Shown one piece after another: positions 38,402 through 52,692 of a stretch of DNA of 64,000 bases (within the stretch, counting starts at the first letter, position 1; each line of letters opens with the position of its first letter). The translations under genes were made by a program, and so were the position numbers. Below the pieces are notes generated by a model. The model was given only the letters and a program-made list of their open reading frames with translations, was not told the origin of the DNA and ran no database searches. The stretch is from assembly GCA_902540805.1 (NCBI GenBank), contig CACBON010000001.1:1-64000 (forward strand). Direction: 5' to 3'. The DNA comes from an uncultured Alphaproteobacteria bacterium (GTDB taxonomy: Bacteria > Pseudomonadota > Alphaproteobacteria > Methylaequorales > Methylaequoraceae).

Positions 38402-38434
38402 AAAAAAAAACCTGACTGCTTAGCCAGGCTTTTT
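38402..38434 (-). terminator. Rho-independent terminator of pqqA copy 1 (possibly bidirectional)
   Basis: Stem CCTGAC/GCCAGG with 9-A run (U tract on minus strand) and T-run on plus strand. Confidence 0.75.
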
Positions 38435-38459: not shown

Positions 38460-38537
38460 CTACTTCTCAGCGCAAGCGTAAGAATTGATTTCAAGACCTA
38501 CAGAGATTTCAGAAATCATAGGTTTCGTCCAAGCCAT
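38460..38537 (-). CDS. pqqA: PqqA-like coenzyme PQQ precursor peptide, copy 1 (25 aa: MAWTKPMISEISVGLEINSYACAEK)
   Basis: PqqA-type E-x3-Y core (GLEINSY), WTKP N-terminus; RBS AAGGA upstream; identical second copy at 52369-52446. Confidence 0.85.
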   Translation of the reverse strand: MAWTKPMISEISVGLEINSYACAEK

Positions 38538-38807
38538 TGTTTATCCTTTAAAAAGTTAATATTAGATTACAATTTATTAAATCTAAATTAACGTTTGCTG
38601 ATTCTTATATTCATATCTTGTTAATGTATTTGAAAAGAATAGTTATTACTAAACTATGTAAGCTATTATTAATAAATATTTTATATGTAGATTATCTTCT
38701 GTTATTTTTTATACACATTGAATACAAAATCATATGTGAATTACGGAGAAAAACAATTTATATTATAAACATCTAGCCAATATTAATTTATACATTAAAT
38801 ACATATT

Positions 38808-48377: not shown

Positions 48378-48737
48378 CTACTTGATTATTCTACCTAAAT
48401 ATCTTCCAAGTGAATCATAAAAAATTCCATTTCTTTCTAGCTTGGCTCTAAACTTTCCTGATGAGCCGTATATATTACCATAACCGTCAATTCTTCCCAT
48501 GTATCCACCACGTGAACCATAAGAATGCCCATTAGGTTCAATTTTTCCTAAGTATTTTCCCATAGAATTATATATACCTCCATTGCTTTCAACTCTTCCT
48601 TTATAACTTCCCAGTGAGTGGTGTATAGTGCCACTACCCTCAATCTTTTCAAGATACTTTCCTAGAGGGTCATAAAGCGAATCAGCTTTGCTGTCACAGA
48701 ATATGAAGATAATTAAAAAGAAATAAAAATTATGCAT
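48378..48737 (-). CDS. Secreted tandem-repeat protein (about 18-aa repeats, (Y/H)(D/N/G)S.G.Y.G(R/K)(I/V)E.NG.I)
   Basis: Six repeats visible by eye after a signal peptide; resembles small beta-flower-type repeat proteins. Confidence 0.7.
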   Translation of the reverse strand: MHNFYFFLIIFIFCDSKADSLYDPLGKYLEKIEGSGTIHHSLGSYKGRVESNGGIYNSMGKYLGKIEPNGHSYGSRGGYMGRIDGYGNIYGSSGKFRAKLERNGIFYDSLGRYLGRIIK

Positions 48738-52312: not shown

Positions 52313-52343
52313 AAAAAAAACCTGACTTCTTAGCCAGGCTTTT
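52313..52343 (-). terminator. Rho-independent terminator of pqqA copy 2
   Basis: AAAAAAAACCTGACTTCTTAGCCAGGCTTTT, nearly the same as the copy 1 terminator. Confidence 0.75.
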
Positions 52344-52368: not shown

Positions 52369-52446
52369 TTACTTCTCAGCGCAAGCGTAAGAATTGATTT
52401 CAAGACCAACAGAGATTTCAGAAATCATTGGTTTTGTCCAAGCCAT
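52369..52446 (-). CDS. pqqA: PqqA-like coenzyme PQQ precursor peptide, copy 2 (same 25-aa sequence)
   Basis: MAWTKPMISEISVGLEINSYACAEK; strong RBS AAGGAGTAAACA-ATG. Confidence 0.85.
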   Translation of the reverse strand: MAWTKPMISEISVGLEINSYACAEK

Positions 52447-52692
52447 TGTTTACTCCTTAAATAAAAAGTTAATAAAATTATATTTTTTTATTATTTTTTT
52501 CTTAATAAACTCTGAGGGTGTTATTCACATTTGGTTAATCTTTTAGTTGAAAATTAAGGGGAGTAATCTCGGAGGGAAAATTATTAATAAAAAAGCTTAA
52601 GATATGAGAATTCAGTGCTTTCAGATAGAGAAGGAAAGACACTGATAAGAAATATCTTTAACCCAAATGTTATATAAATCCCTTAAAAACCA

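Follow-up and report, generated by a model that had tools for sequence, protein, structure and literature searches.

The window, which is the whole 64,000-nucleotide stretch of DNA analysed here, belongs to the genome of an alphaproteobacterium of the HIMB59/AEGEAN-169 clade. It carries two predicted genes for PqqA, a peptide that PqqE consumes as its substrate and that is the precursor of the cofactor PQQ. The first of these, copy A, had been picked out in a preliminary description as a 25-residue open reading frame (ORF) on the minus strand, and we found it at exactly those coordinates with the sequence given there. The parts of the two copies are as follows.

38460-38537, minus strand: pqqA copy A, encoding the 25-residue peptide MAWTKPMISEISVGLEINSYACAEK, based on a PF08042 score above the curated cut-off and on synteny
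38543-38549, minus strand: ribosome-binding site of copy A, AAAGGAT, read from the sequence and kept in syntenic copies
38587-38624, minus strand: putative operator of copy A, TTAAC-N6-TGAAT-N7-TCAG-N6-TTAAT, four direct repeats with an 11-bp pitch; the exact pattern match is 38588-38613
38405-38434, minus strand: intrinsic terminator of copy A, based on a terminator search and folding and kept in syntenic copies
52369-52446, minus strand: pqqA copy B, encoding a peptide identical to that of copy A, based on PF08042, a regular-expression match and synteny
52454-52459, minus strand: ribosome-binding site of copy B, TAAGGA, read from the sequence
52501-52538, minus strand: putative operator of copy B, TTAAC-N6-TGAAT-N7-TCAG-N6-TTAAG; the exact pattern match is 52502-52527
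52316-52343, minus strand: intrinsic terminator of copy B, with a hairpin of -13.9 kcal/mol (z -3.65)

The terminator hairpin of copy A folds with -14.6 kcal/mol (z -4.15) and was the sole terminator found in its region, where 0.1 were expected in shuffled sequences. A third pqqA copy, MAWTKPTISEISVGLEINSYACAEK, lies outside the window, at 100.8 kb of its contig (the 100810 site). The genome therefore has three copies in total, two of them in the window and none adjoining pqq genes. The window also encodes, at 48378-48737 on the minus strand, a 119-residue protein that looks secreted and contains repeats like LGKYLGKIExxGxxYxSxGxY.

A comparison with the Pfam PqqA family, which the preliminary description had proposed, placed copy A well above the curated cut-off of PF08042 (21.1 bits), with 28.8 bits in the whole-genome search (E 3e-6) and 30.8 bits for the peptide alone (E 2.9e-7). 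No PF08042 matches were found in 14 control genomes. The E-x3-Y pair and the W..P N-terminus described earlier correspond to E16 and Y20 in GLEINSY and to MAWTKP, and the gene has its own ribosome-binding site and terminator as had been claimed, with AAAGGA directly 5' of the ATG and a strong terminator at 38434-38405 (minus strand). A chance ORF was ruled out by the HMM score, together with the synteny and the third-codon-position variation reported below. Judged from its sequence, 38460-38537 (minus strand) is a genuine pqqA gene. The description of this gene as an orphan was correct in part: it lies away from pqqBCDE, and tblastn searches with relatives' proteins as queries agreed in finding no pqqB, pqqC, pqqD or pqqE in the window, but it is not a lone gene, being one of three copies, of which copy B had been overlooked. 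Rfam models of known RNA elements matched neither the pqqA sites nor a relative's operon, the only hit being a tRNA elsewhere, and no chain among the solved structures matched the PqqA 25-mer.

We searched GTDB genomes with a degenerate DNA pattern for the PqqA peptide, and the matches came mostly from marine alphaproteobacterial single-cell genomes and metagenome-assembled genomes. Conservation in relatives, on which the earlier reading had depended, was extensive: pqqA was found in 31 of the 32 genomes of the family, and 25 of the 32 had two to five copies. Outside the family but within the same class, more than one copy was found in 4 out of 21 pqqA-bearing genomes (Fisher P 1.4e-5), the class-wide comparison being a rough sampling over a spread of genomes. 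In the typical layout of the family, one pqqA heads a pqqABCDE operon beside xoxF and the remaining copies are solitary.

The orphan sites were found to be conserved in position. The gene neighbourhood of the copy A site (38460) recurs in six other members of the genus (G017, G019, G020, G022, G023 and G025), the copy B site (52369) is syntenic in three genomes (G017, G020 and G023), and the 100810 site is syntenic in at least eight. The neighbours encode cobalamin functions (CobT/DBI_PRT and CobS), transport and housekeeping proteins, a histidine phosphatase and an Adhesin_E-like protein. Neither a maturase nor an enzyme of PQQ synthesis was found among their products. DNA similarity between 38460-type and 52369-type copies is confined to about 165 bp that comprise the ribosome-binding site, the ORF and the terminator. 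Operon sites and orphan sites have the same most frequent peptide, MAWTKPMISEISVGLEINSYACAEK. Among 68 extracted pqqA copies, variable sites numbered 5, 4 and 23 at codon positions 1, 2 and 3, and we judge both orphan and operon copies to be under purifying selection at the codon level. In one 38460-type copy (G025:C17, L167:2111), the upstream DNA diverges 28 nt before the ATG and has no operator, which may reflect decay, rearrangement or an assembly chimaera.

A pattern of four half-sites with an 11-bp pitch, TTAAC-N6-TGAAY-N7-TCAG-N6-TTAA, was found upstream of operon and orphan pqqA alike, and the pitch was seen in an alignment of 61 distinct sites. The core pattern had 80 exact matches in the 32 genomes, compared with 7 for a reversed-pattern control. 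Most of these matches (68 out of 80) were located 50-75 nt upstream of a pqqA on the same strand, and 68 of the 79 pqqA copies carry the exact operator. In the window's genome, the three exact matches are those of the three pqqA copies. The number of matches before pqqA is partly built in, because the pattern was derived from those upstream regions. The independent part of the evidence is the near-absence of the pattern elsewhere in the genomes, where the 12 other matches are near the control level. The operators are not part of the 165-bp stretch of similarity, so more than a recent duplication is needed to account for them. Tandem half-sites with a pitch of about 11 bp, located upstream of or at the -35 position, are features by which OmpR/PhoB-type sites are recognised, and the putative operator is probably bound by a response regulator of this type. 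There are three to four OmpR-type regulators per genome, and by eye these include PhoB-like and PhoP/FeuP-like types.

The enzyme gene pqqE scored above the cut-off in 21 of the 32 family genomes, and one further genome (G019) has a partial gene. It was present in all five genomes that are at least 90% complete, counting a partial gene at an incomplete locus. At the full-length pqqE loci, one pqqA is located 2-3 kb upstream of pqqE. The neighbourhood of the operon is conserved and contains ABC transporter and beta-propeller genes, pqqABCDE, and genes for a pseudoazurin, an XoxJ-like protein, a cytochrome c and XoxF; except for pqqE and the dehydrogenase, these names were assigned by eye. XoxF and pqqE were found together at one locus at about 51.9-60.2 kb of G015:C1 (L170) and also in G020 (L186). 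The dehydrogenase carries WDYDG, which we take to be the lanthanide-type D-x-D motif. It passes TIGR03075 in 20 genomes, and among solved structures it comes nearest to lanthanide XoxF enzymes (6oc5 and 6dam).

A search of the rest of the genome for pqqB-E, as suggested earlier, gave a divided answer, with pqqE present in relatives but neither pqqE nor XoxF above the cut-off in the window's own assembly, which is 75% complete. When 14 kb around the G015 operon were searched against this assembly (G000), only the three pqqA copies matched. Orthologous orphan regions align over their full length at 87-96% identity, so the search would have detected the rest of the locus. One flank of the G015 region (G015:C1, about 37.2-40.9 kb) matches contig C29 of G000 from its first base with 93% identity, and the match of the other flank (about 76.4-87.1 kb) starts at the first base of contig C6, again with 93% identity. 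C29 is an isolated small contig, and about 35 kb of G015 between the flanks have no counterpart. Because the flanking matches stop at contig edges, these 35 kb, including the pqq and xox genes, most likely fall in an assembly gap, and the lack of pqqE from the window's genome is most likely due to the incompleteness of the assembly. Loss of the operon was rejected as the most likely account on the same ground. Across the family, pqqE was undetected in 10 of the 32 genomes, compared with about 7 expected from incompleteness (P 0.14), and the genomes without it were less complete (68.7% versus 82.3%, Mann-Whitney P 0.002).

These results bear on the possibility that the orphan copies are relics of a lost operon, decaying or selfish duplicates, which we consider unlikely. 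Such relics would agree with an assembly in which no pqqE or XoxF was found above the cut-off, and with copy positions that differ among genomes, so that duplicates come and go. However, the flanks known from relatives end at the first base of C6 and on a small contig, the peptides are intact with variation dominated by third positions, operators and terminators are retained in nearly all copies, and the five most complete genomes all have pqqE, one of them as a partial gene.

Spare, co-regulated pqqA copies that feed the single PqqE of a distant pqqABCDE operon are very probably the right explanation. The preliminary description had named a distant pqq operon as one of two destinations for the peptide, and this is the most likely one, with the operon found in at least 21 of the 32 family genomes and headed by one pqqA. 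The scattered copies would be transcribed separately, each yielding the same 25-residue substrate peptide. The single PqqE, together with PqqD, would join Glu16 and Tyr20 of the peptide by a cross-link. PqqB and PqqC would then process the peptide to PQQ, which would serve as cofactor for the XoxF-type methanol dehydrogenase encoded beside the operon. Each PQQ uses up one PqqA, so additional short genes would raise the supply of substrate and leave enzyme levels unraised. The common upstream operator would keep the solitary copies in step with the operon, probably through switching by an OmpR/PhoB-type response regulator. For the window's strain, whose assembly is without the operon, we infer this use of the peptide from its relatives. 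The nine or ten relatives in which pqqE went undetected, and the syntenic G025:C17 copy with no operator, count against this explanation.

The folding of the operon and orphan copies was also compared. In the operon, the gap between pqqA and pqqB contains a strong hairpin with no long T-run (-24.3 kcal/mol, z -5.6 in G015), whereas the orphan copies end in true terminators. The leader of operon pqqA has a hairpin with a mean of -10.0 kcal/mol, compared with -3.4 kcal/mol in the orphans. The hairpin designs of operon and orphans would fit an output of PqqA exceeding that of the enzymes. Both operon hairpins are located at L170:6914-7200 and at the corresponding position of other operon loci. 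The stem sequences of the leader hairpin differ between genera, and this hairpin is missing from the orphan copies.

A role for orphan PqqA or its product in lanthanide handling beyond cofactor supply, for example in a lanthanide-binding route, is very improbable in our assessment. The orphan genes pqqA2 and pqqA3 of Methylorubrum extorquens AM1 respond about 4-fold to the form of Nd, their authors suggested a role in Ln uptake (PMC11317620), and the HIMB59 operon adjoins xoxF, but no lanthanophore genes were noticed near the orphans, and the operon copy, whose peptide does not differ from that of the orphans, is itself sufficient as a PQQ precursor. The other destination raised in the preliminary description, a different radical-SAM/SPASM maturase that makes a RiPP other than PQQ, is the least probable of all: the assembly lacks pqqE and does encode a non-PqqE SPASM radical-SAM protein (L004, G000:C4:78677; Pfam Radical_SAM and SPASM), but no pqqA copy was found to adjoin that gene, which lies on a different contig, the cobalamin, transport and housekeeping neighbours of the orphan sites include no adjoining maturase, the orphan peptide equals the operon PqqA, and one operator is common to both.

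Solitary pqqA copies that add substrate for one enzyme set can be compared with systems already known, since orphan multi-copy pqqA has been reported from Methylophilaceae and Methylorubrum, which are methanol-oxidising bacteria. The relatives of the window's genome show the same arrangement of several pqqA copies, one pqqBCDE set and unlinked solitary copies, and the window's genome itself has three solitary copies. The number of pqqA copies in Methylophilaceae is 3-12, as a rule alongside a single pqqBCDE set (PMC4109929). Methylovorus MP688 has five copies, and PqqA availability there was reportedly rate-determining, as cited in PMC11317620. Like these bacteria, HIMB59 combines an operon copy with unlinked solitary pqqA and one enzyme set; unlike Methylophilaceae, it belongs to a different class and has genomes of about 1.4 Mb and a nearly invariant peptide. 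The shared operator with an 11-bp pitch is described here for HIMB59. Strain FJNU-6 has five pqqA, of which pqqA3-5 are solitary and pqqA1 and the solitary pqqA3 are the most expressed (PMC9851590); its solitary copies resemble those of HIMB59, whose expression is predicted from sequence here, whereas that of FJNU-6 was measured. M. extorquens AM1 likewise has solitary "orphan" genes, pqqA2 and pqqA3. Its operonic pqqA is not essential, and the function of the orphans was not probed in that work (PMC11317620). The AM1 orphans are regulated separately from the enzyme genes, whereas the HIMB59 orphans and operon share an operator pattern.

The PqqA peptide pattern was also found in at least 120 IMG/VR contigs (L225-L344) with a solitary pqqA, for example at L294:8542-8616, L303:4485-4562 and L246:2539 (minus strand). 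The viral peptides contain EINSYACAEK or EINCYACAE; serine was written WSN in the pattern, so the Cys variants were included. Four representative peptides, three of them viral, scored above the PF08042 cut-off. Among the matches listed, the viral contigs formed 13 blastn groups, and 74 of 120 loci had a homologue of terminase, portal, capsid, ribonucleotide reductase or DNA polymerase, sought with proteins from four of the viral contigs. PHROGs named the terminase, portal and major head protein in several pqqA contigs, and one of the viral-contig terminases shares 73.8% identity with its counterpart in Pelagibacter phage HTVC023P. No PqqB-E was found in 0.98 Mb of viral pqqA loci among the matches listed, and no PqqE in 20 whole viral records, which may be fragments. 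We count viral contigs with pqqA and without pqqE in favour of the substrate-supply explanation. No isolate phage had a tblastn match to pqqA at E<=1, and the pattern was absent from the parts examined of HTVC023P and 023Pt_psg01. Earlier reports describe viral pqqA in methylophage VP_266 of Lake Baikal (PMC7678222) and in reservoir viruses (PMC13188868). The IMG/VR contigs form a distinct and far more numerous set, in which the variants are HIMB59-like or of the C-Y-A-C kind. The open-access literature searched yielded these freshwater reports only and no report of marine viral pqqA.

The results have consequences for how an abundant ocean clade is read. Genes of 25 codons are usually omitted from annotations, so the PQQ capacity of HIMB59/AEGEAN-169 is easily misread. 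In our literature search, HIMB59 and methanol dehydrogenase were never found named in the same paper, and methanol and PQQ both go unmentioned in the main paper on AEGEAN-169. If spare copies in streamlined genomes of about 1.4 Mb are kept for substrate supply, they are a natural experiment that could show cleanly whether PQQ synthesis is limited by PqqA, and the solo viral pqqA points the same way. The shared operator and the solo viral pqqA are what these data add to the known multi-copy systems. A more specific proposal, which we advance tentatively and rate somewhat below even, is a dedicated precursor-peptide regulon in which one OmpR-type regulator, acting on a pqqA-specific operator, would set the ratio of PqqA to PqqE, and in which marine phages would exploit the same limiting step with a solo pqqA, sometimes placed between Fe-S assembly genes.

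Upstream of viral pqqA, a HIMB59-type operator was sought and rejected, with mostly chance-level scores of 9-12 out of 19; one group of related viral contigs scored 14-15 out of 19, which is too few independent cases. In some viral contigs, IscA-like (Fe-S_biosyn) and IscU-like (NifU_N) genes flank pqqA or lie close to it (L303:3587-5029, L226:5144-6330 and L280:5335-6038), and a Fe-S_biosyn/NifU_N-type homologue was found in 15 viral loci among the matches listed. The pairing of pqqA with Fe-S genes may be meaningful, because PqqE is itself an Fe-S enzyme. By eye, we also observed an element, GG[AT]C[TC]GCGGTC, often near CAACCAGCAC, directly 5' of viral pqqA in several groups (L295, L301 and L262).
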